Shown in pieces: positions 24,540 through 55,442 of a stretch of 64,000 nucleotides of DNA. The first letter of the stretch is position 1; each line of letters begins with the position of its first letter. Location: assembly GCA_031285845.1 (NCBI GenBank), contig JAITVK010000014.1, forward strand, positions 62,001 to 126,000. The letters are read 5' to 3'. The position numbers and the translations under genes are program-made. The notes under the pieces are model-generated. The model did no database searches. It was not told the DNA's origin and saw nothing but the letters and a program-made list of their open reading frames with translations. Source of the stretch: Propionibacteriaceae bacterium (GTDB lineage Bacteria; Actinomycetota; Actinomycetes; Propionibacteriales; Propionibacteriaceae).

Positions 24540-24555
24540 TGTCGCCCCGAAGCTG

Positions 24556-24584: not shown

Positions 24585-24639
24585 CCGACGAGAATGGGCC
24601 CGAAGGAAAATGTCAGACCCATGCCCTAACGTGTCTGTT

Positions 24640-34262: not shown

Positions 34263-34366
34263 GTCGGCCACTTTGGCCACCGTCGCAGCCGCTGGGGCTC
34301 AGTGCCGCGCGAGGCCGACAGAGTCGGCCATATCGGCCACCCTCACAGCCACTGAAGGCTCAGCCG
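34262..34366. repeat. Two-copy direct repeat between adnB and nudC, period 60
   Basis: Units at about 34262-34306 and 34322-34366 share AGTCGGCCA, GGCCACC, CAGCC and GGCTCAG at corresponding places, about 75 percent by eye. The right unit runs into the last adnB codons; the left one abuts the nudC -10 element, so this looks like a local duplication of promoter-region DNA. Confidence 0.55.
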
Positions 34367-37300: not shown

Positions 37301-37629
37301 TGCGAGGCGAATCCGTCATAGGTCGTGACCGTGGCAGCGAGGATGTCGTCCAACTGAAGCAGGGCCAGGGCCGCCTGAATCCGATCAGCCAACTCGCCTG
37401 CCGCTTTGCGGGTGAAGGTCAGGCCGAGCACCTGCTGGGGTTCCACAAAACCTCGACCGACCAGCCAGACCACCCGTGCCGCCATGACGGTGGTCTTGCC
37501 GCTGCCTGCTCCAGCGATGATCACTCCAGGGGCCAATTCTGCGGTGATCGCGGCCAACTGCTCGGCTGAGAAATCAATCCCCATCAGAGCGGACAGGTCG
37601 GCTGGGGTGTCCAATCGAATGCTGCTCAT
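34360..37629 (-). CDS. adnB: AdnB-type helicase-nuclease subunit
   Basis: Lead-motor subunit of the AdnAB end-resection machine characterised in mycobacteria: an N-terminal UvrD-like ATPase fused to a C-terminal RecB nuclease. The 1089-residue protein has Walker A IAGAGSGKTTVMA, TRKAAGELADR, VVVDEFQDTS, GDPMQAIYTWRGA, TVHRAKGLEWDTV, VAITRAKRQL and the nuclease segment FLIVDWKTGH. A Gly/Asp/Ala-rich low-complexity insert of about 60 residues (around 515-575) interrupts the motor. Its ATG overlaps the adnA stop (ATGA). It could be called UvrD-like generically, but pairing and nuclease domain support AdnB. Confidence 0.93.
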   Translation of the reverse strand: MSSIRLDTPADLSALMGIDFSAEQLAAITAELAPGVIIAGAGSGKTTVMAARVVWLVGRGFVEPQQVLGLTFTRKAAGELADRIQAALALLQLDDILAATVTTYDGFASHIVAEFGDWVGLPSSTSVLADAQRYVVADKVVRSATEAGTHLGHKSISSITKDVVALESAARAHLLDDDQIQRWTTGFLTELDAAPLYRGKAYRAVVDAQRIGLARLDLIRLCSDYRDAKGRAGLVEFGDQMAAAVDLAQRLPLVGATLRARFALVVVDEFQDTSVAQTRMLSHLFGAAGQIRDYPVTAVGDPMQAIYTWRGAAADNMATFHHSFPASKPATYTLSINRRSGAEILRAANAVAEPVRRELAAKDPAVVELTPGAGAPRAEITIHESVTWQEETQWIADRLLDDHRVGRLNQWSDAVILVRRNREAGPIFHACASRGVPVVVQELGGLLFVPAVAQVFAMMKMVVDDQANPEVVEVLSGPRFGLGPHDLEAIGSRARQLAREASDDIGRGDPGRADIGFDDTGDAGTHHGDAAAGSSARGHASDDGGVDRGTGMGTVQLPVRLLAAVIDPGAGAYSPHAVACLARLTHDLTVLRGFNGSLVDHVRRVIAQIGLDVEVYASQADSQGQVRQFLGHVVDFGARQPEAGLSALVAYLEAEATYSSGLSRAGTDPGDAVAIMTVHRAKGLEWDTVVLPAMVDHVFPSDRLSDNPIKTPAALPTAVRSDAAGMPQLREVSNDGLKVYEAELREALAGSEDRLAYVAITRAKRQLVMTCHRWRAGAVRAQRRSRYVDAVADLAGEGSPITVSWLDGEDADLVPIGESPIRDWPTPPDLRWAEARQIVDEAALGHRMWPDADRPPEVQAAIDTWDEQIAILQSEREARSVVSVPVPAPLSTSQLARLRSLGPEQFAARLARPVPSPPSGRTDLGVRFHAWVEQYYSLSPIPQVFRPTHGGRELARLCDRFLSGRFAAARPLGVEVEFVTTIAAVTVSGRIDAVFRAEENPGLVPKGKAFLIVDWKTGHRPADEVQLWVYAMAWAAASSVPLDQVAAGFYYVARDTLAIVDDHDSGQLVDLVASLDEQDEVRDSREVHG

Positions 37630-40600: not shown

Positions 40601-40841
40601 CGCTCAACCGGGCGCGCAAGTCGAGCCGGGCACGTCGAGACCGGGTGAAGAACATCACCTGAGGCGCGCCGTCGTCCAATCCGGCGAGGGCCGCTTCCAT
40701 GAGCGCTGTCGTCTTGCCCGTCCGCGGCCCGCCCAACGCAACTGCGATCCCGACCCGATGCGTCGCGATGGCCTGCTGGCTCGGATTCAGCACCCGCCGA
40801 GCCGCAGGGGCCGGTCGTACGAGCCGGTAGGAAGTCGCCAT
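37626..40841 (-). CDS. adnA: AdnA-type helicase-nuclease subunit with Fe-S cysteines
   Basis: Partner of AdnB. The 1071-residue protein has Walker A ALGGPRTGKTTALME (about 36-50), TRSRRARLDLR, a motif II VIVDDAEDLDGLQ weaker than in AdnB, WDPDTQVYGFRG, TTAHRAKSWSWPLVVV and a C-terminal RecB-type nuclease domain with VWIVDYKTGH. Four cysteines, one in LLGCPRRWFL and three in CRGCAFRQAC, have the AddB/AdnA-like pattern for a 4Fe-4S cluster that staples the nuclease domain. It is the first gene of the adnA-adnB unit and is divergent from telA. Confidence 0.92.
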   Translation of the reverse strand: MATSYRLVRPAPAARRVLNPSQQAIATHRVGIAVALGGPRTGKTTALMEAALAGLDDGAPQVMFFTRSRRARLDLRARLSARQPQLAARLRVTTVHAFAGWVLGHVDDQSGPPQVLSAARQDGYIRDLVAGQPTQAWPQRFDQARQSSRFAGDVREAVAACQRAGLSPRQVEFIGAQAGRDDWMALGGFYQEYLDVLGLAQAVDYPELLIRADQVLSDPEALERVRPAGSMVIVDDAEDLDGLQLDILDRLIDRSTPAILAWDPDTQVYGFRGTVARSVSAMITQWRDRGWPTAVVGLDRGFDVAGQGLRASSAIRDAITLPVGIDLAAVDRYRSTQADADGRATKLVFPDPNAEAAWIAQRLRQAHLRSGLAYESMAVIVRRRDQLARYAMACQEAGVPVALSGDEIQLSSEPVVSCLLAGLRVIRDQEQASMVDVRAVVFSPLGPSIAAVASAGIEAVLPRLFAPTCSDDDPLFGLWSALTAGVGSLEASVADVAWALWSHSTWQQRLLDEAGSAGEQAWRAHRDLDAVVALFALAEQFSDLPARSGITALNEAVTSQEIPEDLPRSSSWSSSAVRLTTAHRAKSWSWPLVVVAGVESSIWPARSTPIGLIDLDGLSESIVLPSDRDQLTSERRSLYVACSSASCELIVTAVDGPDAQPSMLFEQIAAIEQVGGDSPESSAWSPAQLVGRLRLTLADENAHPGLRQAAADRLAVLAAQPGFRGADPTWWWGVGDARSEQPGVSGVIRIEEPGHRARATGVSRDQPGDGPGVVVRGQRQSVGIPGSDNADESPAMVLTASGAQDLLGCPRRWFLARKGQGQRPSGMAASVGVAIHAVVQERSASEEQMVAQLGRRWESIEFPAQWMRTTQWDQAVAMIGRYHAYQRWHDRAWMDSERAVDFTVPAPYSVTIQGRIDRLETDQQSKVWIVDYKTGHTLPTVAAAAANLQLGLYQLGVARGALGPGQVVGGAELVYLGQPDAASSALPKVFRQESLTDHPYLIHDKEPPIGRWPPLESVGSQRQHPTWVHHRLGLATGVLRQDTYPAIAGPGCRGCAFRQACPGLIDESGGA

Positions 40842-41116: not shown

Positions 41117-42349
41117 ATGTCCGATTCGTCGGCCCCAGCCGCTTTGGCGGCACCAGCTTCGTCGTCTGCCATTCTCACCTTGGAGGCTCCGGCCGCCATG
41201 GAGGTTGTGGCCACCACGCAGGCCCCCGCGATGGCTCCACAAGTCGACGCGGCTCAGGTGCCCGTGCTGGATGACAAGGTGGCGTCGTTCATGAAGCAGA
41301 TCGATCAGGCCGAGACCAAGTCCCCAGAGTTCTCCGCCCAAGCCGACGCCGTACGAGCGATGGGTGACGTCGATATTCGTAAAGCCGCCGAGACCTCCAA
41401 CCGTCTGCTGACCGCACCGGTCAAAGCGATGAAAGAGGGCGGCTTGTCCCAAGGGTCGACGGTCGGCAAGACGCTGATGGACCTGCGCCGTACGGTCGAG
41501 GAACTGGATCCCCACGAGGACGAGGGCTTCATGAAGAAGCTCTTCGGCTCCTTGCCCTTCAAAAGCAAGGTGTCGGACTATTTCCGCAAGTATCAGTCGT
41601 CTCAGGATCATCTGAACGCGATTCTGCACGCTCTGCGCTCGGGCCAAGACGAGTTGACTCGCGACAACGTCTCGCTGAACATGGAGAAGCAGAACCTGTG
41701 GCAGACGATGGGGCGGCTCAACCAGTACGTCTACATCGCTGAGCGTCTGGACGCCCAACTGGCGCAGAGGGTGTCCGAGTTGACGGTGACCGATCCTGAG
41801 CGTGCCAAGGCCATGAGCGAGGACGTGCTGTTCTACGTGCGTCAGAAGCACCAAGACCTGCTGACCCAGTTGGCCGTCTCGATCCAAAACTACTTGAGCA
41901 TCGACATCATCATCAAGAACAACATCGAGCTGATCAAGGGCGTCGACCGGGCCTCGACCACCACGGTGGCCGCTCTGCGCACGGCTGTGATCGTCGCGTC
42001 GGCACTGGGCAACCAACGTCTGGTGTTGGATCAGATCACTGCGCTGAACACCACCACCTCTGGCTTGATCCAAAAGACCTCGGAGATGCTGAAAGAGAAC
42101 TCAGCCAGCATTCAACAGCAGGCCGCCAGTTCGACCATCGGCCTGTCCCAGTTGCAGGCCGCCTTCCAGAACATCTATCAGACGATGGATTCGATCGACG
42201 CGTTCAAGGCGCAAGCTTTGACCAACATGGCGCAGACCATCACCGTTCTCGAAGATGAAGTGTCCAAGTCACGCACGTACCTGAACCGGGTCCAACAGCG
42301 CTCGCCTCAGCAGGCGATTGACTCGCTCACGGTCGAGACCCGGGCCTGA
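41117..42349 (+). CDS. TelA/KlaA family protein (toxic anion resistance family)
   Basis: First gene of the nine-gene signalling operon. The 410-residue protein is almost entirely helical after an Ala/Pro-rich N-terminus (about 1-50) and shows the TelA pattern: GSTVGKTLMDLRRTVEELDP, KKLFGSLPFKSKVSDYFRKYQSSQDHLNAIL, a middle coiled coil, QNYLSIDIIIKNNIELIKGVDRA (split here by motif), and VASALGNQRLVLDQI. TelA was named from plasmid tellurite resistance, but the biochemical role is unknown. Comparative genomics links it to Ter stress systems. GGAGGG six bases upstream indicates strong translation. No TM segment, so cytosolic or membrane-peripheral. Confidence 0.92.
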   Translation: MSDSSAPAALAAPASSSAILTLEAPAAMEVVATTQAPAMAPQVDAAQVPVLDDKVASFMKQIDQAETKSPEFSAQADAVRAMGDVDIRKAAETSNRLLTAPVKAMKEGGLSQGSTVGKTLMDLRRTVEELDPHEDEGFMKKLFGSLPFKSKVSDYFRKYQSSQDHLNAILHALRSGQDELTRDNVSLNMEKQNLWQTMGRLNQYVYIAERLDAQLAQRVSELTVTDPERAKAMSEDVLFYVRQKHQDLLTQLAVSIQNYLSIDIIIKNNIELIKGVDRASTTTVAALRTAVIVASALGNQRLVLDQITALNTTTSGLIQKTSEMLKENSASIQQQAASSTIGLSQLQAAFQNIYQTMDSIDAFKAQALTNMAQTITVLEDEVSKSRTYLNRVQQRSPQQAIDSLTVETRA

Positions 42350-42361
42350 CAGGGGCGCACA

Positions 42362-42901
42362 GTGGGTTTTTTCGACTGGTTCCGTGCCGAACCTGAGCAG
42401 GCCGAGGCCGCTGTCGCCGGTCCTCCGACCCCCGAACAGATCAGTGCGGCGCTGGACACCATGGATGCCCGCGTGCTCGAGGCCCAGTTGTCTTCCCCGG
42501 TCATCGCCAGAGTCCGGCGCATCACCCAGCGCCTGCGTCAGACGCTGCCTCGGATGACCAACGCCGGGCTGACCTCGGTCGACCAGTACTCTCTGATCGC
42601 GACGGCCACCAGCTATCTGCCACAAACCGTGAGCAGTTACGTACGGCTGCCGCGCGACTGGGCGGACCGTCGTCCGGTCGACGCTGGGCGCTCCTCGCTG
42701 CTGGTTCTGGTCGACCAACTGGATCTGCTGGGCGCGACCATCGACAAGATTTATGACGCGGTCATAGCCAAGGACGCCGAGGCTTTGGTGGTCCACGGGC
42801 GCTTCCTGGCTGAGAAGTTCACCCCGGGCCACATGGACGCGCGTGTGATGCCCGCTGTGGCCAAGCCTTCCGCCACGGCCACCGGTTTGGATTTGGGATG
42901 A
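42362..42901 (+). CDS. Uncharacterised protein in the TelA-PknG operon
   Basis: A 179-residue protein I do not recognise. It starts with GTG (MGFFDWFRAEPEQ), and has a helical N-terminal half, a central proline/arginine segment (SSYVRLPRDWADRRP) and an acidic/hydrophobic helical C-terminal half (LLVLVDQLDLLGATIDKIYD). There is no TM segment or cysteine pair. It lies 12 bases after telA and overlaps the AAA+ gene by four bases, so it is probably co-translated with them. TelA genes are often followed by a small helical partner (for example XpaC-like), but I see no firm similarity. Confidence 0.7.
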   Translation: MGFFDWFRAEPEQAEAAVAGPPTPEQISAALDTMDARVLEAQLSSPVIARVRRITQRLRQTLPRMTNAGLTSVDQYSLIATATSYLPQTVSSYVRLPRDWADRRPVDAGRSSLLVLVDQLDLLGATIDKIYDAVIAKDAEALVVHGRFLAEKFTPGHMDARVMPAVAKPSATATGLDLG

Positions 42902-44364
42902 CGACGAACGACACCACTGACGCTCAAAAGATGGAAGATTTCACCACCAACGGCCCAGCCGTGCTGCGCCAGGTGATGGCCGCTCTGCGTCGGGTCAGCT
43001 CTGAGCAGGGCCACACCATCGACCAGCTGAGCGTCGACCCGTTCAGCTTGACCGACCTGCCCTCAGACGCTCCTGGAGCCTTCGAACTGCTCGGTTCTCC
43101 CCTGCAGGCAGGCGGCGACGCGACGACACCGGATGGCGACCAGTCACACCCTGGTTTGGCTGGCGTGGGACCAGGTTCGGCCACGCAACCGAATGGACAG
43201 TCTCAGTCGGGCACCACTGACGCACGAACCGGTTCGACGACCAGTCCGGCGACCGCCGCAGCTGCTGCTCCCGGGCAGCCTGATCAAGCCGAGGCTGAGA
43301 CAGCCCCGTCACTGTCCGAGCTGCTGGCTGAACTCGACGGGTTGATCGGATTGGAGTCTGTCAAACAGGAGATTCACCGCCAGTCGGCCATCTTGCGCAT
43401 CCAGGGCTTACGGCACAAGGCCGGTCTGAAGGATCCGACGGTCACCCGACACCTGGTGTTCGTCGGCAACCCCGGCACAGGCAAGACCACCGTGGCTCGT
43501 CTGGTCGGCGGGATCTACCGAGCCCTCGGCTTGCTCAGCAAGGGGCATCTGGTGGAGGTCGACCGCTCCGAGTTGGTCGCCGGCTACCTGGGACAGACCG
43601 CCATCAAGACCGCCGAGGTCTTGGCCAAGGCGGCCGGAGGCGTCTTGTTCATCGACGAGGCCTATGCCTTGTCAGGAGATCAATACGGCCAAGAGTCGAT
43701 CAACACCTTAGTCAAGGAGATGGAGGATCGACGCGGCGATCTGGTCGTGATCGTGGCGGGCTACCCCGGTCCGATGGAGCAGTTCATCGCCGAGAATCCT
43801 GGGCTGGAGTCGCGTTTCCGTACGACGATCGTGTTCCCCGACTACACCGACGACGAGCTGACGGCGATCCTCACCTCGATGGCTCATGCCGCCGATTTCG
43901 ACCTGCCTGAGGCGAGCGTACGGGCGTTCCGCGCACTGCTCGCCCTCCAGGTGAGAGACGAGAATTTCGGCAATGGCCGTTTCGTACGAAACGTGTTCGA
44001 GGCGGCAATTGGCAAGATGGCTTGGCGATTGAAGGACGTGGCCGAGCCCACCCTCGAACAACTGCGCCAGATCTTGCCGCAAGACATCTCACCAACACCC
44101 CAGGAATCAACGCCGACCGAGCCGGTCGACGAGGAAGACCAGTCCGGCTCGACTGACGATGAGTCAACGCCGACCGAGCCGGTCGACGATGGCGAGTCAC
44201 TGTCCGCCGAACAAGCCGACGCCAAGCCGATCCCCACCGATCCGACCGAACCCATGGATCTGGTCGATGGCGTCGAACGGGTTGAGACCAGCCAACCCAG
44301 CGAACAGATCGCCCCTGGAACACCCGATCAGGCTTATCGGCTCTCTGCCCCGCCGGAGGCCTGA
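42898..44364 (+). CDS. CbbX/SpoVK-type AAA+ ATPase
   Basis: Hexameric AAA+ remodelling ATPase of the CbxX/CfqX family, which includes Rubisco activase CbbX, SpoVK and the EccA ATPase domain. The 488-residue protein has a Gly/Thr/Pro-rich N-terminal region (1-135), then the AAA+ domain: LIGLESVKQEI, Walker A FVGNPGTGKTT, GYLGQTAIKT pore-loop region, Walker B VLFIDEAYAL, arginine finger region NPGLESRFRT and sensor 2 GNGRFVRNVFE. The C-terminal ~110 residues are acidic and contain a repeated STPTEPVD unit encoded by a 29-bp DNA repeat. No Rubisco is nearby, so the target is probably an operon product. Confidence 0.9.
   Translation: MTTNDTTDAQKMEDFTTNGPAVLRQVMAALRRVSSEQGHTIDQLSVDPFSLTDLPSDAPGAFELLGSPLQAGGDATTPDGDQSHPGLAGVGPGSATQPNGQSQSGTTDARTGSTTSPATAAAAAPGQPDQAEAETAPSLSELLAELDGLIGLESVKQEIHRQSAILRIQGLRHKAGLKDPTVTRHLVFVGNPGTGKTTVARLVGGIYRALGLLSKGHLVEVDRSELVAGYLGQTAIKTAEVLAKAAGGVLFIDEAYALSGDQYGQESINTLVKEMEDRRGDLVVIVAGYPGPMEQFIAENPGLESRFRTTIVFPDYTDDELTAILTSMAHAADFDLPEASVRAFRALLALQVRDENFGNGRFVRNVFEAAIGKMAWRLKDVAEPTLEQLRQILPQDISPTPQESTPTEPVDEEDQSGSTDDESTPTEPVDDGESLSAEQADAKPIPTDPTEPMDLVDGVERVETSQPSEQIAPGTPDQAYRLSAPPEA
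44104..44189 (+). repeat. In-frame 29-bp direct repeat in the AAA+ gene tail
   Basis: Copies at 44104-44132 and 44161-44189 differ at one base (period 57, a multiple of three), encoding two STPTEPVD units in the acidic C-terminal tail. Confidence 0.8.
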
Positions 44365-45593
44365 TGGCCACCGCCAGTCCTTCCAAGGGTTCGGTTCGCA
44401 CTGCGACGACACCCACCGCGACGAGCACAGCCTCGGTCGCGACCCAGTCGGTGGCCAAGCGGCCGAACTCGACCACTCTCGCTTCTCGCGTGTCCAGTCC
44501 TCGACTGTTCGCCTGGTTGCGACGTGGTTTGGTGGTTGCCCTGGTGATCGCGGGCGTCACCGGTCTGAGCGCGATCGCCACCTCACAGTCGAATCAGCAA
44601 CAGGTCGCAGCCACCGTCCAACATGTCCACGATCTGCAAGATCTTCGCGCCGACGTCGCCCAAGCCCAGTCGATCGCCATGGCGTCGTTCGTTGCGACCA
44701 CCCCACAGCAGGTCGACACCCAGTGGCAGGGGTACGAGCAGGCGGGCGAGGCCATCGCAAAATCGATGGTCGGGGCGGCGGTCAACACCACCGACCTGGC
44801 ACAGATGAACCAGATCGTCACCGATCTGACCCGGTGGCAGACCGCCGTGGCGCTCGCCCATGGCGCCGGGGCCAGCCCCACCACCGCGTCGGCGACCATC
44901 CAAACTGTTGTCGACGCTCAAGCCAGCTTGGACTCCACGTTGAGCGGGGCCATCGACTCTGTTGGTCAGACCACCGTGACATCCAGCGCCCTGGTCGTGG
45001 CACTGGTCGTCGCGGTCGCCACCGCCTGTCTGTTCCTGACCGCGTTGGTGATCATAGCCCGCCGGACCCACCGGGTGATCAATATCGGAGTGGCTATCGG
45101 CTTGATCGCGGCAGTGGCGATGGTGGCTCCTTTGGCTGGCTACCTGAAAGCCACGACCGAAGCCGACCATTCCAGCACCTACCGCGGCCAACTGAGCGCC
45201 ATCGACGTCAATGTCTGGTCCGGTCGCAGTATGGGCGCTTTGAGGATCCTCGATCCTAGCCGGTCCGCCGACACGGTCACGGCGATGACGAGCGACGTCG
45301 TCACCGCTGTCGGACAAACCGGAATGTCGGGACAGGTCGAGGCTGCCCTTCAAGCGTTCGTCGCCCATCAGAACCAAGCGGCCACCGACAGCACCCCGGA
45401 TCTGGTGTTGGACGCGACCACCTGGCAGGACCTGTCTGATCAGATCAACTCCGAGATCTCGTCGGTCACCACCTGGGCGGCGGCCGGCGTGGTGCCCTCA
45501 CTGACGCCGTCGATCCTGATCGTGGTTGGCGGGCTCATCGGCATCGGCGGCACACTGGCCGGTGTCCACGCCAGGACGAAGGAGTACGGATGA
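44364..45593 (+). CDS. Four-TM membrane protein with two extracytoplasmic loops (GlnX-like topology)
   Basis: A 409-residue membrane protein. After a Thr/Ser-rich cytoplasmic N-terminus (1-50) come TM1 (about 55-73), an extracytoplasmic helical loop (75-205), TM2 (208-232), TM3 (238-260), a second extracytoplasmic loop (262-375) and TM4 (378-401). This topology, and linkage to pknG, match GlnX, which in mycobacteria and corynebacteria receives an aspartate/glutamate signal from lipoprotein GlnH and passes it to PknG. No glnH is in the window. Sequence identity to GlnX cannot be judged here. The start overlaps the AAA+ stop (TGATG). Confidence 0.72.
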   Translation: MATASPSKGSVRTATTPTATSTASVATQSVAKRPNSTTLASRVSSPRLFAWLRRGLVVALVIAGVTGLSAIATSQSNQQQVAATVQHVHDLQDLRADVAQAQSIAMASFVATTPQQVDTQWQGYEQAGEAIAKSMVGAAVNTTDLAQMNQIVTDLTRWQTAVALAHGAGASPTTASATIQTVVDAQASLDSTLSGAIDSVGQTTVTSSALVVALVVAVATACLFLTALVIIARRTHRVINIGVAIGLIAAVAMVAPLAGYLKATTEADHSSTYRGQLSAIDVNVWSGRSMGALRILDPSRSADTVTAMTSDVVTAVGQTGMSGQVEAALQAFVAHQNQAATDSTPDLVLDATTWQDLSDQINSEISSVTTWAAAGVVPSLTPSILIVVGGLIGIGGTLAGVHARTKEYG

Positions 45594-46693
45594 GTCTGCC
45601 CGAAGCTCCCGGGTCAGCCCAGACCCCACCGACGATACAGCAACTGATGGCGTACCTGCCCCAGTTGGAGCAGTGGATCGATCAGACGCGCGCCACGCTC
45701 GACGGGTTGGATCGTAAGATCCAACAGGCCAGTCCTGACCAGGGTGTCCACGACATGGCGATGACGTTGACTGTGTGGCAAGCCGTGTCCGATCGTTACC
45801 ACGATCTTGATCGGACGTGGGACTCCGGACGGGTGACCGAGGTCCAATTGCGAACGCTGGGCGCGATGATTTGGGGAAACCTGAACGACATGCTGACCCC
45901 AGGAACCACGTTGACCACAGGCGGCGGATTGGCACTGTCCCTGCCGGAAGCCTGCCGGATGCTGGACGCTTTGGTGACCCAGTTGTCCACCCGCTACCAG
46001 TTAGGGCCGGTGGCTCCCCAGGCCGCCGCGCGCATCGCCGGATTGCGGGCGCAACTGGAAAGAATTCGCCAACAGGTGGCGCTGGATCCGCCCCAGATCT
46101 TGGCCACCACCGCCGGACCGGTCAACCAACTGTCTCACGACGTGGACGAGTTGGTCGCCATGGCTGATCGGGGCGGCGACATCGGCGGGATCATCGGGCC
46201 GTTGGAGGCCCGCGCCGCGCGGATGGAGCGCGACCTGATCGTGGCCCACGCCGAACGCGCCCAATTGGCGGCCGCCGTCGGCCAAGCTCGCAACCGCCAG
46301 GCCCAGTTGATCGCCCGTGAGCAGGCCGTGACCACGCTGGTGGCCGCGACCCAAGCCGAGGTGACTCCAGCTCCGAAGTACGCCGTGCCGCACGTCGAAG
46401 CCTTGGGCCCCGTGCCGAACACGATTGCCGATCTGCCGGCCTATCTGGCCAAACTGGATCAGGTGAATCGAGCGCTCGACCTGGTCCAGCAGGCCAATCT
46501 TCAGGCGAACGCCCGCAAGCAGGGTTTGGCCCAGCGTTTTCAGGCGGCGCGCACCGCCGCCAGTGCCAATCAGAGTCTGACTCAGACTCTAGGCACGCAG
46601 ATTGAGCAGTTGCTGACCAGTCGACCGGCGCCGCTCGACGTGATCGAGCCGCTGATCGCCGCGTTGGAGACCGCCGGAAGGCAGTCGTCATGA
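45590..46693 (+). CDS. Coiled-coil protein of unknown function, linked to pknG
   Basis: A 367-residue, Gln/Ala/Leu-rich, largely helical cytosolic protein. Coiled-coil stretches are visible around residues 15-50 (LPQLEQWIDQTRATLDGLDR), 145-250 (ARIAGLRAQLERIRQQVAL, LEARAARMERDLIVAHAER) and 280-345. No TM segment or catalytic motif was found. It overlaps both neighbours by four bases (ATGA). It may be an adaptor between the membrane protein and the kinase; this is inference from position only. Confidence 0.72.
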   Translation: MSLPEAPGSAQTPPTIQQLMAYLPQLEQWIDQTRATLDGLDRKIQQASPDQGVHDMAMTLTVWQAVSDRYHDLDRTWDSGRVTEVQLRTLGAMIWGNLNDMLTPGTTLTTGGGLALSLPEACRMLDALVTQLSTRYQLGPVAPQAAARIAGLRAQLERIRQQVALDPPQILATTAGPVNQLSHDVDELVAMADRGGDIGGIIGPLEARAARMERDLIVAHAERAQLAAAVGQARNRQAQLIAREQAVTTLVAATQAEVTPAPKYAVPHVEALGPVPNTIADLPAYLAKLDQVNRALDLVQQANLQANARKQGLAQRFQAARTAASANQSLTQTLGTQIEQLLTSRPAPLDVIEPLIAALETAGRQSS

Positions 46694-49194
46694 GATGCAC
46701 TCAACCCGGCTGCCCCGGACACATCGTCGACGGTTACTGCGATGTCTGCGGCATGCCCGCGCCAGCCGGCGCCAGTGTTCCGGCCCAGGCCGCCCACGCC
46801 TCACCGATCGGTCGGCCGACCGCCTCACCGGTCCCGCCTGCCGCCGTTTCGACTGGCGTACGACCTGGCCCAGCCCAAGCGCGTCCGACCCCTGTCAGCG
46901 GCGGAGTTCCCCCACTGGATCGGTCAGGCTCCGCCACCGGTCGATTCCTCACCGCGAGCGCGGCTGCTGCGCCAAGCCCGACTCAATCGTCGGGCACCGG
47001 GCCGCGCTGTCAAGTCCCGGGCTGCCCCGGTCACATCGTCGACGGTTACTGCGACACCTGCGGCGCTCCGGCCTCACAGCCGCAAGCCTCCACCGCGTCC
47101 ACCGCTGGCCTGGCCACCATGAGCCTCGGGTCCTCGCGGCTGCGCGGCGGCATGGCCGTGCGGCGTCCGTCGGTCGCCAACCACAACCTGGCGCATCTGG
47201 GGGCCGGTTACACCACGATTCCTCCGGAGCCGACCGTCGACCCCAAGTCGGCGATTCTGGCCCACCCGGAGGTGCCCGAGGATCGGCGCTTCTGTCCCAA
47301 CTGCGGTGCGGAAGTCGGACGGTCGACCAAGGATTCGCCCGGGCGACTCGAAGGCTACTGCCCCGCCTGTCGCAAGCCGTACTCTTTCACACCCAAACTC
47401 CAACCCGGTGACGTCGTGGCCGGACAATACAAGGTCAGCGGATGCCTGGCTCATGGCGGCATGGGGTGGCTCTACTTGGCCCAAGACCAGAACGTGTCGG
47501 ATCGCTGGGTGGTCCTCAAAGGTCTGCTGAACGCCGGAGACGAGGCGTCGATGCAGGCCGCGATGGCCGAACAGCGCTTCTTGGCTCAGATCCAGCATCC
47601 GCTGATCGTGGAGATCTACAACTTCGTCACTTTCGAAGGCGGCGCGTACATCGTGATGGAGTTCGTCGGTGGGCGCTCCATCAAACAGATCTTGAAGGAT
47701 CGGATGGCGAAAGCCGGCGGAGTGTACGATCCTCTGCCCGTCGCCCAGGCGTTGGCCTACATCGTGGAGATCCTTCCGGCGTTCAGCTATCTTCACGCCC
47801 GGGGCCTGCTCTACTGTGATTTCAAGCCGGACAACCTGATGCACGTCGAGGATTCCGTCAAGCTGATCGACATGGGCGGTGTGCGCCGTATCGACGACGA
47901 CGATTCGGTCATTTTCGGGACCGTGGGTTTCCAGGCTCCTGAAGTGGCCACTCAGGGCTGTTCGGTCGCCTCGGACATCTACACCATCGGACGCACACTG
48001 CTGATCTGCTGCGATGAGGTCAAAGGGTATCAATCGACCTACGCGACCACGCTGCCGCCGGCTGAGTCGCTGCCCCACCTGGCCCATCAGGATTCGGTCT
48101 ACCGGTTGATCGCCAAAGCCTGCGCACCCGACCCGTCGGACCGTTTCGCCTCAGTCGAGGAGCTGCGTGAGCAGATGCTTGGGGTTCTGCGCGAGGTGGC
48201 CTCGGTCTCCCGCGGCGCAGGAGCCCAGACCGCCACCCCGTCGGATCTGTTCGAACCTCCCACGGTGGTGTCCGACGCCTTCACTTGGAAGCATCTGCCC
48301 CGGTTGAAGCCTGATTTGAGTGATCCGGGGTTGGTCACTCTCGGGTCGCTCGACCCGGCACTGAGCCCGCAGGACCGGTTGGCCGCGTTGCTGCGCTTGC
48401 CCGTACGCACTCTTCAGACCGACATCACTGTCGCTTTGACGGCGATCGACGTCGGGGCGAAAGATGTGTTGGCGCGTACGGTGGAGTCGATTCTGACCCG
48501 TGACCCTTGGCAGTGGCGCGCGGCGTGGATCGAAGGACTGTCGGGGTTGAACACCGGCGATTGGGCGCAGGCCCAGGCGTGTTTCAACGCGGTCTATTCC
48601 CAGGTCCCCGGCGAGTTGGCGCCGAAGTTCGCTTTGGCGGTGGCCTGTGAGATGGGTGGAGTGGTCGATGTGGCTGAGCGCCTCTATCAGGTCTGCGCGG
48701 CCACCGACGCGGCGTACCTGCCGGGCGCGGCTTTCGGCTTGGCCCGCATCAGGGCCCGGCGTCGAGGCGCCACTGGTCAGATCGCCGACACCGGCGCAGT
48801 CCTGGCCGCCTTGGACCTGGTCCCAACCACCTCGGGTGGTTGGCGCCAGTCACGCCAACTGGCCGCCACCTATCTGACCCACGCCGGTCAAGGGGTGGCC
48901 GATCTCAACCGTGCGGCCCAAGCCATCGCCACCGCCGGATTGGGCAAAGCCGAGCAGTTGCGTCTGGAGTTGGAAGTGTTCCGGCGTGCGTTGGGCTTGG
49001 CGACGCTCGCGAACCGTAAAGCGGCTCGGCGGAACACGGTGCCCACCGTCGGCGGCGTGCCGGTCACCCGTAGCGACCTGCGAGCCAAGATCGAGTCGAT
49101 TCTGCGGGCGCAGGCCAGCCTTGAACCTGATGCAATCAAACGGAACTCTCTGCTCGACCAGGCGAACTCGTGGAGAAAGTGGACTTTACTATGA
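46690..49194 (+). CDS. pknG: PknG-type serine/threonine protein kinase
   Basis: Soluble eukaryotic-like kinase; mycobacterial and corynebacterial PknG phosphorylate the FHA protein GarA/OdhI to control 2-oxoglutarate metabolism. The 834-residue protein has two N-terminal zinc ribbons (C3...C20 and C107...C124, each with GCPGHIVDGYCD), a rubredoxin-like motif (FCPNCG, YCPACRKPY; about 202-227), and the kinase domain with glycine loop AHGGMGW, Lys277 in VVLKG, a non-RD catalytic loop YCDFKPDN (Asp377) and DMG at 394-396. C-terminal TPR-like helices follow (about 560-830). The PknG hallmarks, rubredoxin-like motif before and TPR after the kinase, are all present. Confidence 0.95.
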   Translation: MRCTQPGCPGHIVDGYCDVCGMPAPAGASVPAQAAHASPIGRPTASPVPPAAVSTGVRPGPAQARPTPVSGGVPPLDRSGSATGRFLTASAAAAPSPTQSSGTGPRCQVPGCPGHIVDGYCDTCGAPASQPQASTASTAGLATMSLGSSRLRGGMAVRRPSVANHNLAHLGAGYTTIPPEPTVDPKSAILAHPEVPEDRRFCPNCGAEVGRSTKDSPGRLEGYCPACRKPYSFTPKLQPGDVVAGQYKVSGCLAHGGMGWLYLAQDQNVSDRWVVLKGLLNAGDEASMQAAMAEQRFLAQIQHPLIVEIYNFVTFEGGAYIVMEFVGGRSIKQILKDRMAKAGGVYDPLPVAQALAYIVEILPAFSYLHARGLLYCDFKPDNLMHVEDSVKLIDMGGVRRIDDDDSVIFGTVGFQAPEVATQGCSVASDIYTIGRTLLICCDEVKGYQSTYATTLPPAESLPHLAHQDSVYRLIAKACAPDPSDRFASVEELREQMLGVLREVASVSRGAGAQTATPSDLFEPPTVVSDAFTWKHLPRLKPDLSDPGLVTLGSLDPALSPQDRLAALLRLPVRTLQTDITVALTAIDVGAKDVLARTVESILTRDPWQWRAAWIEGLSGLNTGDWAQAQACFNAVYSQVPGELAPKFALAVACEMGGVVDVAERLYQVCAATDAAYLPGAAFGLARIRARRRGATGQIADTGAVLAALDLVPTTSGGWRQSRQLAATYLTHAGQGVADLNRAAQAIATAGLGKAEQLRLELEVFRRALGLATLANRKAARRNTVPTVGGVPVTRSDLRAKIESILRAQASLEPDAIKRNSLLDQANSWRKWTLL
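46708..47052 (+). repeat. Duplicated zinc-ribbon coding segment in pknG
   Basis: Segments 46708-46740 and 47020-47052 agree at 32 of 33 bases and both encode GCPGHIVDGYC. The DNA between them encodes Pro/Ser/Ala-rich linker. Synonymous positions are also conserved, so the duplication is recent or homogenised. Confidence 0.8.
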
Positions 49195-50249
49195 CAAAAC
49201 TCGACCGCGGCGCGCCCGGAGTCCAGTGGAGCGCCGACACCAGCCCGATGACCGCACCGACGGCCCAGGCGACCGCTGTGGACTCGTACCCGGTCGCCTG
49301 CGCGGCGTGCGGCGGCCAGCTCGGCGTCGATGGCTACTGTACGACCTGCGGCCAGAAGGCACGCAGCCTGCGCGAGCACTATGAACTGACTCCCCAGCCC
49401 TGGGTGGCCGGTGTCTGTGACATTGGCCAGACCCATGCCCGCAACGAGGACGCGCTGGCACTCCAGGCCGACGCGACACGTGCCGTGATCGTGGTCTGCG
49501 ATGGTGTAACCACCTCGGAAGGTTCCGACGTCGCCTCCATGGCCGCGGCCCGATCGACCTGTGACCATGTGTGGGCCAGCGATCCGAAGGGCTTGGGAAC
49601 CCCGAGTTCACGTGCGGCCGCCATGAGGTCGGTGCTCGTCAAAGCCGTCGCCCGAGCCAATCAAACCGTGATCGACCACACCGACCTCGCGTCACACAAC
49701 TTCGCCGCGACGACGATCGCGATCGCGGTGGTCGACTCATCAGCGATCTTCTGCGCCACCTTGGGCGACTCCCGTGTCTACTGGCTGCCCGATTTCGGCC
49801 AGCCCGAGCAAGCCACCAAAGACCACTCACTGGCTCAGTCGGGAATGGATTCGGGCACGGAGCGGGCCCAGGCCGAGGCCTCGATCTTCGCCCACACGAT
49901 CACCAAATGGTTGGGACGCGACGCCACCGATCTGATGCCCAACACCGCGCAGATCGAGCTCACGGAGCCCGGCTGGCTGATCGTGTGTTCCGACGGCTTG
50001 TGGAATTACGTCTCCGAGGCCGCCCGCCTGGCCACCCTGGTCGGCGAGCTCGCCGGCGAACCGGTCACTGCCCATCAGTTGGCCACCCGCTTGGTCGGCT
50101 GGGCCAACGACCAAGGCGGCCATGACAACATCACGGTGGCCTGCGCTCGCGTCGGCGACCATCGACCGGCCCAGGAGGCGCGGGCGTCGACGACGAGCGA
50201 AGCAGTCGACACCACCAGCGCATCCGGTCCGACCCCGAAGCACACCTGA
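49191..50249 (+). CDS. PP2C-family protein phosphatase with N-terminal zinc ribbon
   Basis: Metal-dependent Ser/Thr phosphatase, expected to reverse PknG phosphorylation. The 352-residue protein has a zinc ribbon with C37, C40, C50 and C53 (CAACGG, GYCTTCG), then the PP2C domain: GQTHARNEDA, VVCDGVTTSEG, FAATTIAIAVVD, LGDSRVYWL, VCSDGLWNYV and GGHDNITVAC, which together contain the metal-binding aspartates. The Ser/Thr-rich tail after about residue 325 is low complexity. Its ATG overlaps the pknG stop, so kinase and phosphatase are translationally coupled. Confidence 0.93.
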   Translation: MTKLDRGAPGVQWSADTSPMTAPTAQATAVDSYPVACAACGGQLGVDGYCTTCGQKARSLREHYELTPQPWVAGVCDIGQTHARNEDALALQADATRAVIVVCDGVTTSEGSDVASMAAARSTCDHVWASDPKGLGTPSSRAAAMRSVLVKAVARANQTVIDHTDLASHNFAATTIAIAVVDSSAIFCATLGDSRVYWLPDFGQPEQATKDHSLAQSGMDSGTERAQAEASIFAHTITKWLGRDATDLMPNTAQIELTEPGWLIVCSDGLWNYVSEAARLATLVGELAGEPVTAHQLATRLVGWANDQGGHDNITVACARVGDHRPAQEARASTTSEAVDTTSASGPTPKHT

Positions 50250-50289
50250 ATGTGACGGCAACCACCCCTGAGCGCGATCACTGATCGTC

Positions 50290-50295
50290 TAAGCT
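50290..50295 (+). promoter_or_regulatory. Candidate internal leaderless promoter (-10) before the VWA gene
   Basis: TAAGCT ends six bases before the VWA ATG (50302) and no Shine-Dalgarno is present in the 52-base gap after the phosphatase gene. No clear -35. Confidence 0.38.
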
Positions 50296-50301
50296 GTTCC
50301 T

Positions 50302-51582
50302 ATGGCCATTTTCACCTCCACCGTCTACCAGAACGAGTTCCTCGCCGACGGTTCCACCGATGTCAACGCCATCGTGCGGATCACCTGTTCGCAGGCCGGG
50401 GTCGCCGGGCAGTCGGGCGCGGGCGATGTCGGTGAGATCGTCATCGTGGACACGTCGGCGTCGATGGGCCTGGTCAACATGCAGGCCGCGAAGGACGCGG
50501 CCATGGTCGCGGTGGACACGATCGTCGATGGGACATACTTCGCGGTGGTCGCCGGCAATCACCGAGCGTACCTGGCTTTTCCTCGAGTGACCTCAGGTCC
50601 GGGCATGGTCCGCATGGATCCGAACACCCGGATGGCCGCCAAAGCCGCTATCGCGTCGTTCAGAGCCGACGGAGGCACGGCCATGGGGGCCTGGCTGTTG
50701 TTGGCCCGATCCCTGTTCGCCTCCATTCCCAACCTGGCTGGAAAGCACGCCATCTTGCTGACGGACGGCGAGAACCACAACGAGTCGGTCACCCAACTGG
50801 ACGCTTCGATCCGTCAATGCTTGGGCCAATTCCAGGTTGACTGCCGTGGCATCGGCGTCGAATGGCAAGTCTCTGAGATTCGCAAGATCGCCCAAGCGCT
50901 GCTCGGCACCGTCGACGTCATTCCGGGCCCGCGCGACCTGCCCCGTATCTTTCGCGAACTGATCGCCACCTCGATGGGTCGGGGCGTTCCCGACGCCCAT
51001 CTGCATGTCTGGATCCCCCAAGGCGCGCAGATCCTGTTCGTTCGCCAGGTCTCGCCCACGGTCGAAGATCTGACACATCGAGCCACCCCGCTCAACCCCC
51101 TGACCTCGTGGTATCCGACCGGCGCTTGGGGTGACGAGTCGCGCGACTACCACATCGCGGTACGCTTGCCCGCCAAGGCGGTGGGAACCGAGCAACTGGC
51201 AGCGCGGGTGCAATTGGTGGCCGGGGCGGCCATCCTGACCCAGGGCATGGTCAAGGCCCGCTGGTCGGCCGACGCCAGCTTGACCACGCGAATCAGTCCC
51301 GAGGTCGCCCACTACACCGGACAGACCGAATTGGCCGCCGTCATCCAAGAGGGTCTGGCGGCCCACGCCGGCGGCGACGATCGCACCGCCACACAGAAGC
51401 TGGGGCGCGCGGTCCAACTGGCCAACCAGACGGGCAACGCCGAGGCCACCACCCGGTTGTCACGCGTGGTGGACATCACCGACGCCGCGACCGGCACAGT
51501 GGCGATGAAGAAAGACATCGACAAGGCTGACGAGATGGCGCTGGACACCGCGTCCACCCGAACCACCAGGATCCGAGGATAA
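50302..51582 (+). CDS. VWA domain protein (TerY-like context)
   Basis: A 426-residue cytosolic protein with a von Willebrand A domain (about residues 40-235). It has an intact metal-ion-dependent adhesion site, VDTSASMG near residue 50, a conserved threonine region DGGTAMGAW and LLTDGENHNE. The C-terminal half contains beta-rich VWA-associated sequence and ends with helical ATQKLGRAVQLANQTG. In Ter-type systems a VWA protein (TerY), a PP2C and a kinase form a triad; here the VWA gene follows kinase and phosphatase directly. It probably scaffolds a metal-dependent complex. It lies three bases before the FHA gene. Confidence 0.9.
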   Translation: MAIFTSTVYQNEFLADGSTDVNAIVRITCSQAGVAGQSGAGDVGEIVIVDTSASMGLVNMQAAKDAAMVAVDTIVDGTYFAVVAGNHRAYLAFPRVTSGPGMVRMDPNTRMAAKAAIASFRADGGTAMGAWLLLARSLFASIPNLAGKHAILLTDGENHNESVTQLDASIRQCLGQFQVDCRGIGVEWQVSEIRKIAQALLGTVDVIPGPRDLPRIFRELIATSMGRGVPDAHLHVWIPQGAQILFVRQVSPTVEDLTHRATPLNPLTSWYPTGAWGDESRDYHIAVRLPAKAVGTEQLAARVQLVAGAAILTQGMVKARWSADASLTTRISPEVAHYTGQTELAAVIQEGLAAHAGGDDRTATQKLGRAVQLANQTGNAEATTRLSRVVDITDAATGTVAMKKDIDKADEMALDTASTRTTRIRG

Positions 51583-51585
51583 CCC

Positions 51586-52476
51586 ATGGCAGTGTGTGTG
51601 AACGGACATCAAACCCGCACCGAAGATTTCTGCGATCAATGTGGCATGGCGGTGGTCGCCTCATCCGCGAATGGTCCGGTCGCAGGGGCGGCGTCACCAG
51701 CGGGAATGGCGCCAGTCGCGGGAGTCTGCCCTCACTGCGGAGCGCCACGCCCGGCCAACGCATTGTTCTGTGAGTCCTGCGGCTACGACTACACCACAGG
51801 AGCCCTGCCGCAGCAGGAGCTTCATGCTGAGCTCGGTTTGACCGCGAAGGGCGCGCCCGCCGGCTCGGTCGCTCCAGGTGCACCGGGTGCGATGCCGGTC
51901 GCGCCTGTGGCCGCCGCTGCCGGGGTCGCGACACCGGTCGATGACTCGATCACCGATCAACCAACCGGTTCACGAACACCGCCGGGCTCGCAAGGCTCGA
52001 AGTCGGCCGATGCTACCGGGCCATCACAGCCCGGTCGTGCCACTGGATCGGCCCGCGCTGGCGACAAGCATCAGACGTGGGTGGCCGAAGTGTGGATCGA
52101 TCCACAGTGGTACGCCTTTCAAGAGGCGACCGACCCATTGCCGCCGCAAGGCCCCGCCCGGATCGTGGTCCTGCACGAATCGGCCCTGATCGGACGCCGA
52201 TCCGTCTCCCGCAACATCCATCCCGACATCGACTGCGGCATCGACCCTGGGGTCAGCCGCCGCCAGGCCTACCTGTCCTCAGCCGACGGCTATTGGTACG
52301 TCACCGACCTGGAGTCGGCCAACGGCACCTTCGTCGGCGCGGTGACCGATCCCCTGCCCGACGAGCCGATCGCCGCTCGCACCCCGGTCGGACCTGATGT
52401 CCGCATCTACGTCGGGGCCTGGACGCGCATCGTCGTACGCCCCGCGATCGCGGAGGATCTTCCCGTGCGGTTGTGA
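51586..52476 (+). CDS. FHA domain protein with N-terminal zinc ribbons
   Basis: Phosphothreonine-binding protein, the likely reader or substrate of the PknG-type kinase. The 296-residue protein has two zinc-ribbon motifs (CVNGH...FCDQCG, residues 4-19; VCPHCGAP...FCESCGYDY, about 46-69), a Pro/Ser/Gly-rich linker (about 80-150), and a C-terminal FHA domain with LIGRRSVSRN, GVSRRQAYLS and LESANGTFVG. Unlike GarA/OdhI, I see no N-terminal ETT phosphorylation motif and the ribbon extension is additional, so it is not a simple GarA orthologue. GAGGA lies seven bases before the ATG. Confidence 0.9.
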   Translation: MAVCVNGHQTRTEDFCDQCGMAVVASSANGPVAGAASPAGMAPVAGVCPHCGAPRPANALFCESCGYDYTTGALPQQELHAELGLTAKGAPAGSVAPGAPGAMPVAPVAAAAGVATPVDDSITDQPTGSRTPPGSQGSKSADATGPSQPGRATGSARAGDKHQTWVAEVWIDPQWYAFQEATDPLPPQGPARIVVLHESALIGRRSVSRNIHPDIDCGIDPGVSRRQAYLSSADGYWYVTDLESANGTFVGAVTDPLPDEPIAARTPVGPDVRIYVGAWTRIVVRPAIAEDLPVRL

Positions 52477-52829: not shown

Positions 52830-55379
52830 TCACACGCCGAGCCTCGTACGGCGCAGCAGTTCCTCGTCGCGCTGATCGGTGGTCGGATGGTGACCGGGCA
52901 ACGGCATGATCCGTTCGTGGATCGCGTCAAGGATCGCGTCCACCCCAGGACCCATCAGATCTTGGCGACCACCGGCCGGCATGACCAACGAACGAGCGCC
53001 GAGAACCACCACGGGCGCGTCGAGATCATCGAAACAGGTTTGCGTGATCGTCGACGCGATGGTGTGCAAGTACGAGCCCCTCTCGACTGCCTCGCCGACC
53101 AAAACCACCCGGCCAGTCTTCTTGACTGAGTCGATGATCGGAGTCAGATCCACTGGGGTCAGGAAGCGCAGATCGATCAGATCGCAGCTGACGCCGTACG
53201 TCCTGTCAAGGATCGATGCCGCCTCGTCGCCGGTGTAGAGGCTCGGTCCGACGGTGACGATCGTCACATCATCACCCGTACGACGTACGGCGGGGACCCC
53301 TTCTTCAGCGCGAACCGGGCCGTAGGGCACCCCGCCTGGCTCGAACTGTTCGCCGCGATCGTAGAGTTGAGCCGACTCCAGGAAGACCACCGGCTCAGAC
53401 CCAGACAAGGCCAGGCCCAGCATGGACTTGGCGTCGGTGGGGGTGGCCGGATAGTAGACCCTGAGCCCTGGGACATGCGCCGCCATGCCTGACCAGTCCT
53501 GACCCAACTGGGCGTCGCTGGGACGCTGGACCACCACGCGGACCACCAGCGGCATCGTCAACCCGGTCACGGCCGACCACTTCGCCATCTGGTTGAACAG
53601 TTCGTCGCCGGCACGCCCCAAGAAATCACAACCGGTCAATTCGACCACGGCCCGACCCCCGCTCAAGGCGTACCCGACACCAGCGCCGACGATCGCCGCC
53701 TCAGTGATCGGCGCGTTGAACAGGCGAGGGTAACCCAGCAGTGCAGTCAACCCGTCGTAGACCCCGAAGGCGCCACCCCAGTCACGATTGTCTTGGCCCC
53801 AACACGCCATCGTCGCGTCATGAGCGGCGGCGTCGACCAGCGCTTCGAAGAGCCCGTCGCGGAACTGATAAATCTGGTCGTCCGCCACCGGTTGGCCGTC
53901 GTCGATGACCTGGCGGACCTTGGCCGATATCGCGCGCACTCGCCGATTATCTTCGACCGGTTCGAGCAGCTTGGCGGCGACCGCGGGCGCGGTGACCGGG
54001 TCGCCCACCCCTTCGACCGAGTTAGCGACGCCTTCGGCCGCGTCACCTGACCTTTCAACCGAGTCAGCCTCCCCTTCGACCGAGTCCGCCACAGCCTCAG
54101 CTCGATCGGTCGATGTCATCCTCGACTCGACGAAGGCGATGTCCACGGCGTCATCAGCCTGATCGTCGGCCACCAGTTCCAACACATGGGCGATCTTCTC
54201 CACGATCAACTCGTGGGCGTCGTCGATCTGACCGGCCGAGAGCACACCGGCGTCGATCAAGACCTGTGAGAAGGCCTTGATCGAATCGACGTCGGCCCAC
54301 ATCTGCTGTTCCTCAGCCGTACGATAACTGTTCCGGTCTTCGGCCGAGGCCCCGCAGGTACGGTAGGTGACGACGTCGAGCAATCCCGGGCCTCGCCCGG
54401 CGCTCAACAGGGCCTTCTTACGTCGCGTCGCGTCGGCCACGGCCATCGGATCGTACCCGTCGACCCGTTCGGCGTGCATCGCCTCAGGATCGACACCGGC
54501 TCCGATCCGTGCGAGCATGTCGAAGCCCATCGTCTCCCCACGCGTCTGAGCGCCCATGCCATAGAAGTTGTCGAAGAACGTGAACAGAACCGGCGGGCGG
54601 CCCTGGGCTTCTTCCGGCCACAGGGTCCGGTATTGATCCATCGCGGCGAAGCTCATCGCCTCCCACACGGGCCCGCAGCCCGCGGCGGCGTCGCCCAGGT
54701 TCGCCACGACCACCCCGGGGCGCTGGTTGATCCGCTTGAACAGTGCGGCCCCGGTCGCCAACCCGGCCGCGCCGCCGACGATCGCATTGTTCGGCATCGA
54801 ACCGAACGCTGGGCAGCAGACGTGCAGCGGGCCAGCCATGCCACCGTTGAAGCCGCCACGTCGAGCGAACACCTCGGCCAGCGCGCCGTACAAAATGAAG
54901 TTGGCCTGCAACTCGGATTCCGACTCGTACGGCAGCGCTTCGGCGTGGCGCAAAGTCTGACCGCCGGTTTGGGCCTCCATCGTGGCGCGCACGTCCTCGG
55001 GATCCATGATTCTCGCGGCGGCGAAACACTTCGCCAAGACCTCGCCGTGGGAGCGATGCGATCCGAAGATCTGATCCTCGACCCCGAGCTCCAGCGCCTG
55101 ACCGACCACGGCGGCCTCCTGTCCGACACTGGCGTAGACCGGGGCGCCCGGACTGGCCTGGATTCCCTGCCACTGGCCGCGGGTGCTCAGCTCATCAAGC
55201 ATCGACTCGAACTCACGGATGACCATCATGTCGTTCAGCACGTTGATCAGCGTCTCGCTGCCATAACGCGCGAACTCGGTGGCAAGGTCAAACCGATAGG
55301 TGTTCACCGGAATCGACGGCGGCTGGACAAGGCCGGGAGCGCGTACCTCGAACGGGTTGATGACAATGGACTTGGTCAT
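52830..55379 (-). CDS. 2-oxoacid dehydrogenase E1, fused alpha and beta subunits
   Basis: Thiamine-diphosphate-dependent decarboxylase component of a 2-oxoacid dehydrogenase complex. The 849-residue protein has an alpha half (about 1-400): SHRSHGEVLAKCF, the ThDP motif GDAAAG (229-234) with FFDNFYGMG near 269-277, and a Val/Glu/Asp/Ser-rich repeat linker (about 425-470) with SVEG units. The beta half (about 490-849) has QDNRDWGGAFGVYDGL, FNAPITEAAIVGAGVGYALSG (quoted as a motif region) and VVLVGEAVERGSYLHT. Alpha and beta are usually separate genes. It follows the E2 gene by 63 bases. Substrate (branched-chain, pyruvate or acetoin type) is undetermined. No E3 gene is present. Confidence 0.9.
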   Translation of the reverse strand: MTKSIVINPFEVRAPGLVQPPSIPVNTYRFDLATEFARYGSETLINVLNDMMVIREFESMLDELSTRGQWQGIQASPGAPVYASVGQEAAVVGQALELGVEDQIFGSHRSHGEVLAKCFAAARIMDPEDVRATMEAQTGGQTLRHAEALPYESESELQANFILYGALAEVFARRGGFNGGMAGPLHVCCPAFGSMPNNAIVGGAAGLATGAALFKRINQRPGVVVANLGDAAAGCGPVWEAMSFAAMDQYRTLWPEEAQGRPPVLFTFFDNFYGMGAQTRGETMGFDMLARIGAGVDPEAMHAERVDGYDPMAVADATRRKKALLSAGRGPGLLDVVTYRTCGASAEDRNSYRTAEEQQMWADVDSIKAFSQVLIDAGVLSAGQIDDAHELIVEKIAHVLELVADDQADDAVDIAFVESRMTSTDRAEAVADSVEGEADSVERSGDAAEGVANSVEGVGDPVTAPAVAAKLLEPVEDNRRVRAISAKVRQVIDDGQPVADDQIYQFRDGLFEALVDAAAHDATMACWGQDNRDWGGAFGVYDGLTALLGYPRLFNAPITEAAIVGAGVGYALSGGRAVVELTGCDFLGRAGDELFNQMAKWSAVTGLTMPLVVRVVVQRPSDAQLGQDWSGMAAHVPGLRVYYPATPTDAKSMLGLALSGSEPVVFLESAQLYDRGEQFEPGGVPYGPVRAEEGVPAVRRTGDDVTIVTVGPSLYTGDEAASILDRTYGVSCDLIDLRFLTPVDLTPIIDSVKKTGRVVLVGEAVERGSYLHTIASTITQTCFDDLDAPVVVLGARSLVMPAGGRQDLMGPGVDAILDAIHERIMPLPGHHPTTDQRDEELLRRTRLGV

Positions 55380-55442
55380 GTTCTTTCTTCTCTGTTCGAC
55401 TCGGGACCCTCGACGCCGATCGGCGTGATCGGGTTGACTGGT

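Follow-up and report, generated by a model that had tools for sequence, protein, structure and literature searches.

What does an operon built around the Ser/Thr kinase PknG do in a bacterium in whose genome two known metabolic targets of the PknG pathway are not found? In Mycobacterium tuberculosis, PknG is investigated for its part in virulence and metabolism, and in Corynebacterium glutamicum as an amino-acid switch. The question is raised here by a 64,000-nt stretch of a Propionibacteriaceae genome (assembly GCA_031285845.1, contig JAITVK010000014.1, positions 62,001 to 126,000), referred to below as the window. Between its positions 41117 and 52476, nine forward-strand open reading frames (ORFs) encode, in order, a TelA-family protein, an uncharacterized helical protein (U2), an AAA+ ATPase, a GlnX-like sensor, a coiled-coil protein (CC5, or the coil), PknG, a PP2C phosphatase, a VWA protein and an FHA protein.

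PknG and GlnX-type signaling are already known (PMC6069109; PMC8546545; PMC9769921), but a search of the open-access literature found no description of this operon in the ten-gene form, with glnH, that is common elsewhere, nor of PknG retained without KGD and GltB (glutamate synthase). Because genomes without these two enzymes retain an operon in which PknG stands with a phosphatase of its own, with phospho-readers and with a TelA/AAA+ module, a second job for PknG is suggested, probably a membrane-directed one, in much of the Propionibacteriales and in relatives of Intrasporangiaceae and Ornithinimicrobium. TelA, for which no description of a mechanism was found in the same literature, thereby gains concrete candidate partners.

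Co-inheritance and gene order of the telA and pknG halves

All nine ORFs are present on one strand, as an earlier prediction for this DNA (the original prediction) had listed them, with junctions of 1–52 bp. Short gaps separate telA from U2 (12 bp), PP2C from VWA (52 bp) and VWA from FHA (3 bp), while U2/AAA, glnX/coil and coil/pknG overlap by 4 bp each and AAA/glnX by 1 bp. The pknG/PP2C junction is most likely a 4-bp ATGA overlap as well, with a predicted PP2C start at ATG 49191, 3' of the listed GTG. A scan of the operon interior showed no sigma-70-like promoter and no terminator better than chance, which is weak evidence in a GC-rich actinomycete.

Among 97 genomes of the window's GTDB family, PknG_TPR was found in 50 and high-scoring TelA likewise in 50; 48 genomes have both, 45 have neither, and just two of each kind are discordant (Fisher p ~1e-22, uncorrected for phylogeny). 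Gene order was compared in 132 loci, made up of neighborhoods from this family plus 80 additional named loci that the coil had picked out, and scored with hidden Markov models (HMMs) built from operon members; some loci enter twice (one genome, two routes), and independent genomes are fewer than loci. All nine genes were found in 84 of these, in the same order and on the same strand in every one, and no locus showed any other order. The nine-gene loci span Propionibacteriaceae, Nocardioidaceae, Kribbella and Intrasporangiaceae/Ornithinimicrobium, and incomplete ones mostly end at the edge of a contig or fetched stretch. Given the co-occurrence and the fixed gene order, the arrangement is not chance. 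The original prediction had held that the two halves belong together and had named beforehand a neighborhood survey, with the nine genes rarely co-occurring, as its possible refutation; the survey did not refute it.

The pknG half is the older part. VWA orthologs scoring 476–495 bits against the operon-type profile are present in all eight sampled genomes (7–10 Mb) of a Streptomyces-like genus, where glnX, glnH, pknG, PP2C, VWA and FHA share a strand in the six loci read and, where this was checked, a coil gene precedes pknG. (“Streptomyces-like” and “mycobacteria-like” are inferred labels, resting partly on known operon structure.) The order of the pknG half, the matching VWA and the N-terminal zinc ribbons on PknG are shared with the window; differences are the presence of GlnH, a coil that is only weakly similar, and telA–U2–AAA, which was not seen in the fetched loci of this genus. 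Mycobacteria-like genomes have glnX–glnH–pknG only, and in some Streptomyces-like and mycobacteria-like genomes TelA is found apart from pknG. Since the Streptomyces-like genus has the core without telA–U2–AAA, and another genome (G235) has telA–AAA alone, the operon is an old signaling core extended by a telA–U2–AAA module. The view that two established themes newly meet in this operon did not hold up: PknG, PP2C, VWA and FHA already stand together with glnX and glnH in the Streptomyces-like genus, and only telA–U2–AAA is added.

Loss of GlnH and apparent absence of two metabolic targets

The product of the fourth gene has transmembrane segments (TMs) near 48, 213, 238 and 376, and with four TMs, two extracytoplasmic domains and a gene within a pknG operon it has the architecture of the GlnX family. 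It scores 29 bits against the NCBIfam GlnX model NF058618, below the cut-off of 250, though the operon-built HMM matches GlnX of mycobacteria-like and Streptomyces-like pknG loci at 138–180 bits. Judged by these profiles the homology to GlnX is real, and the original assignment was right; the label “GlnX-like” is kept because the NF058618 cut-off was missed.

Outside the clade of the window, a tenth gene of ~1 kb lies between glnX and the coil gene in the majority of loci. Those tested encode SBP_bac_3 proteins, i.e., GlnH, and a GlnH HMM was positive in 69 loci, counted among those with glnX and its neighbor. There is no glnH in the window operon, where glnX and the coil gene overlap directly, and the only SBP_bac_3 protein found in the genome is encoded away from the operon in an ABC-type neighborhood. 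The inventory of nine genes was correct in itself but overlooked the absence of a gene usual in the operon elsewhere. Because GlnH is present in the outgroup loci, both Streptomyces-like and mycobacteria-like, its absence is a loss. On a concatenated PknG+VWA+TelA tree its presence changes at least four times, while the cytoplasmic parts persist.

GlnH loss is accompanied by sharp divergence of the extracytoplasmic domains of GlnX, while the kinase and VWA stay conserved. Among 66 distinct genomes with kinase, GlnX and VWA, and in pairs matched at 70–80% kinase identity, GlnX domain 1 identity is 0.44 where both have GlnH vs. 0.19 where both lack it; the same pairs show no such drop in TM2–3 (0.28 vs. 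0.27) or in VWA (0.68 vs. 0.74). Note however that the pairs without GlnH come mostly from one large clade, and that recent losses (L015, L019, L020) show a smaller effect. The published model notes that neither GlnH–GlnX nor GlnX–PknG contact has yet been demonstrated (PMC9769921); the divergence of the extracytoplasmic GlnX domains where GlnH is lost supports GlnH–GlnX coupling from an independent, evolutionary side. Two further arrangements were seen in this part of the operon. Ornithinimicrobium loci (L118:8511-9977, L147:8424-9935) have a second four-TM protein, with GlnX-like TM spacing, in the glnH slot, and three genomes of one genus (L021, L027, L037) have a second pknG–PP2C, which in L021 and L027 is accompanied by glnX and glnH; the main operon there (L015, L019) has no glnH.

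In the known GlnH–GlnX–PknG–GarA/OdhI cascade, KGD and glutamate synthase are targets of GarA. No candidate for KGD/OdhA (2-oxoglutarate dehydrogenase E1, PF16870) was found in the window's genome, although 85 of the 97 family genomes have a match, and none for glutamate synthase GltB (PF01645), for which 94 of the 97 have some match, counting weak ones not taken as GltB. Neither enzyme shows up in three genomes that retain pknG together with telA, namely that of the window, G026 and G075. A GarA/OdhI homolog that has an N-terminal zinc ribbon and the motif ETTTT is encoded outside the window, ~29 kb before its first position (G000:C10:32442-32777, reverse strand; 143 bits to NF041660, below the cut-off of 200), and no close OdhI homolog was found in G075. 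Almost every one of the 97 family genomes has an OdhI homolog, whether PknG is there or not, so that the presence of OdhI is not diagnostic. With no GlnH in the operon and no KGD or GltB found, the canonical GlnH–PknG–GarA–KGD route is broken at both ends in the window's genome, and it is unlikely to be how the operon works in this lineage. The original prediction had named control of 2-oxoglutarate metabolism as one of its themes; by way of GarA and KGD this cannot be the output here, as neither KGD nor glutamate synthase was found in the genome.

Components, proposed mechanism and alternatives

The active-site and metal-binding residues of the signaling proteins are intact. PknG resembles the M. 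tuberculosis PknG structure 2pzi along its length (3.5e-123) and has the rubredoxin, kinase and TPR domains of its family; the catalytic residues K277, D377, K379, N382, D394 and G396 are invariant in 113 sequences. PP2C matches PF13672 (8e-13) and scores 130 bits against NF033484, under the cut-off of 230, with its metal-binding Asp invariant in 34 aligned sequences. The metal ion-dependent adhesion site (MIDAS) of VWA (D50, S52, S54, T126, D155) is invariant in 107 sequences, and operon-type VWA has a mean column identity of 77% across diverse loci. The FHA protein (PF00498, 3e-8; PF13240, 3e-8) retains G203, R204, S224 and N246 where aligned. The zinc-ribbon motif GYCxxCG occurs three times in the window, twice in PknG and once in PP2C, vs. 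0.00 expected from shuffles. Across loci, the majority of PknG and PP2C ORFs carry it and the majority of FHA ORFs carry a looser [YF]CxxCG; VWA, AAA and TelA ORFs have none.

TelA is a clear family member (PF05816, E=2e-90; 303.6 bits, gathering cut-off 30), its operon-type subfamily has a mean column identity of 75% in 17 loci, and no match was found among solved structures. According to a citation in PMC8865564, TelA has a part in Listeria resistance to nisin and cell-wall-acting antibiotics. U2 is modeled by AlphaFold as a helical bundle (mean predicted local distance difference test score, pLDDT, 82.8), with no match in Pfam, NCBIfam or PADLOC, nothing in the PDB at E<=0.001 by Foldseek, and VIA-align scores only in the generic helical-bundle range. 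The AAA+ protein shows Walker A (GNPGTGKT), Walker B (FIDEA) and pore-loop (GYLG) motifs, and its PDB matches include CbbX (3syk, 1.5e-59) and EccA1 (9lur, 8e-48). Its AAA + AAA_lid_6 architecture is that of CbbX, EccA and SpoVK, but it falls below every NCBIfam equivalog cut-off, has long low-complexity tails, and has no Rubisco or ESX genes in its operon. Calling it CbbX-type was therefore sound at the superfamily level and not for CbbX proper (TIGR02880, 223 bits vs. a cut-off of 459).

The coil is modeled as all helical (mean pLDDT 93.3), with only insignificant Pfam matches and nothing in the PDB at E<=0.001 by Foldseek; its C-terminus is weakly similar to the coil at the same position in Streptomyces-like loci (hhalign E=2e-5). 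For the GlnX-like protein, as for U2, no Pfam family was found. A phylum-wide profile search had matched the coil in no other genome, but this was a sampling miss, and a scan of named genomes found it in many genera. A seeming coil–PknG fusion in the Streptomyces-like locus L065 (a 1348-aa ORF) proved on inspection to be a frame artifact.

The reading preferred here, to which we would give about an even chance, is that of a vertically kept, two-module membrane-signaling operon in which GlnX–coil–PknG/PP2C signaling controls TelA–U2–AAA+ via VWA and FHA. The core module would comprise the GlnX-type sensor (joined, in most relatives that lie outside the window's clade, by GlnH, a lipoprotein that binds amino acids), the coil as adaptor, PknG, PP2C as its antagonist, and VWA and FHA as scaffold and phospho-reader; TelA, U2 and the CbbX/EccA-group AAA+ would form the effector module. 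An extracytoplasmic cue would change GlnX, and the coil would relay this to PknG, which would phosphorylate Thr sites within the operon's proteins as well as the GarA/OdhI homolog, with PP2C reversing it. FHA would dock at the phospho-sites and, together with the MIDAS-type VWA, would govern TelA at the membrane's inner face, either its assembly or its turnover by AAA+, much as the original prediction had supposed in proposing a phospho-relay to AAA+ and TelA. The zinc ribbons common to PknG, PP2C and FHA may act as a docking system keeping writer, eraser and reader together. A stronger version, possible but held more tentatively, is that in TelA-bearing lineages this VWA/FHA–TelA–AAA+ membrane machine would be the main output of PknG and the GarA–KGD branch dispensable, with GlnX able to work apart from GlnH and to respond to different extracytoplasmic cues; in Ornithinimicrobium the second four-TM protein occupies the glnH position.

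Several points weigh against the two-module reading. The coupling of the telA and pknG halves is not absolute, because G026 has the operon without AAA, G029 has glnX–pknG–PP2C–FHA without telA, U2, AAA or coil, and G235 has its adjacent telA–AAA pair and no other operon gene. VWA and FHA are split by unrelated genes in several loci. The individual interactions, the direction of the signal, the membrane or envelope output and the role of TelA as effector are proposed from sequence. The window's genome (G000) is a draft of 2.68 Mb in 37 contigs, 98% complete, so absences from it are not absolute. NAD-dependent glutamate dehydrogenase (NAD-GDH) is another GarA target, and a GarA output may run through it or through a different target, given the genomic homolog with its ETTTT motif.

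In a rather unlikely alternative, GlnX, PknG and GarA/OdhI would tune 2-oxoglutarate and glutamate metabolism as in the published cascade (PMC6069109; PMC9769921), and telA–U2–AAA would be a co-transcribed accessory. The window resembles the Mycobacterium/Corynebacterium glnX–glnH–pknG operon in having homologs of the characterized GlnX and PknG close together on one strand, with the same kinase, rubredoxin and TPR domains, and a GarA/OdhI homolog elsewhere; most relatives outside its clade also retain GlnH. It differs in lacking glnH, its one SBP_bac_3 protein sitting apart, and in adding coil, PP2C, VWA, FHA, telA–U2–AAA and the extra N-terminal PknG zinc ribbons. The missing KGD and glutamate synthase, and a co-inheritance of telA–U2–AAA too tight for a passenger, also speak against metabolic control, for which the non-diagnostic OdhI adds little.

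A Ter-like stress, anti-phage or antibiotic system, with TelA, kinase, PP2C and VWA forming a protective sub-membrane structure, is more doubtful still, and the tie to TerY-P drawn in the original prediction is putative. These are Ter-associated parts, sub-membrane structures have been proposed from comparative genomics for TelA and the vWA protein TerF (PMC7824862), and kinase–PP2C–vWA neighborhoods with zinc ribbons have been described for actinobacterial conflict systems (PMC7159879). The gene order is stable across families, unlike that of a mobile defense island; the kinase is of PknG type and matches only generic kinase models in PADLOC; the VWA groups with the Streptomyces-like core; and there is no TerD, TerB or TerC among the annotated neighboring genes, the rest of the genome not having been searched for them. 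That two unrelated operons are adjacent by accident is scarcely credible. The halves do occur apart, in the Streptomyces-like genus and in G235, but the overlapping or nearly overlapping junctions, the 84 collinear loci and a co-occurrence of 48 versus 4 contradict it strongly.

Feature coordinates, variant loci and neighboring genes

Table 1. Features of the operon, in window positions.
Feature	Position	Strand	Basis
TelA-family protein, 410 aa	41117..42349	+	PF05816, residues 70-390
U2, uncharacterized all-helical protein, 179 aa	42362..42901	+	AlphaFold helical bundle; kept in operon
AAA+ ATPase, SpoVK/EccA/CbbX group, 488 aa	42898..44364	+	AAA + AAA_lid_6
GlnX-like four-TM sensor, two extracytoplasmic domains, 409 aa	44364..45593	+	TM positions; operon-built HMM
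CC5, cytoplasmic helical/coiled-coil protein, 367 aa, proposed adaptor	45590..46693	+	AlphaFold
PknG, 834 aa: two N-terminal zinc ribbons, rubredoxin, Ser/Thr kinase, TPR	46690..49194	+	PF16919, PF00069, PF16918
Two GYCxxCG zinc-ribbon motifs, PknG N-terminus	46732-46751, 47044-47063	+	Pattern search
PP2C phosphatase with N-terminal zinc ribbon	49191..50249 (listed ORF from GTG 49170)	+	PF13672
VWA protein with VWA_3_C tail, 426 aa	50302..51582	+	Pfam; MIDAS residues
FHA protein with N-terminal zinc ribbons, 296 aa	51586..52476	+	PF00498, PF13240

Some loci have extra genes between PP2C and VWA, aldo/keto reductase-like or DivIVA-like as read from sequence, which look like unrelated insertions. 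In Phycicoccus elongatus no telA or U2 lies within the 5.9 kb examined upstream. G092 (L080:8790-13430) has an eroded operon, in which telA, U2, truncated pknG and VWA, and FHA are left and AAA, glnX, coil and PP2C are gone.

The nearest named relatives of the window's genome are Propionibacteriaceae metagenome assemblies. Immediately 5' of the operon, two recombination nuclease systems stand side by side: a RecC–RecB–RecD-like set (24502-33106, forward strand) and two UvrD/PD-(D/E)XK helicase-nucleases, AdnAB-like by architecture (34360-40841, reverse strand). A class II (B12-dependent) ribonucleotide reductase is encoded further upstream (18227-21031, reverse strand). Convergent with the 3' end of the operon (52830-58169, reverse strand) are genes for a pyruvate-dehydrogenase-like E1 with fused alpha and beta parts (849 aa) and a 908-aa E2.

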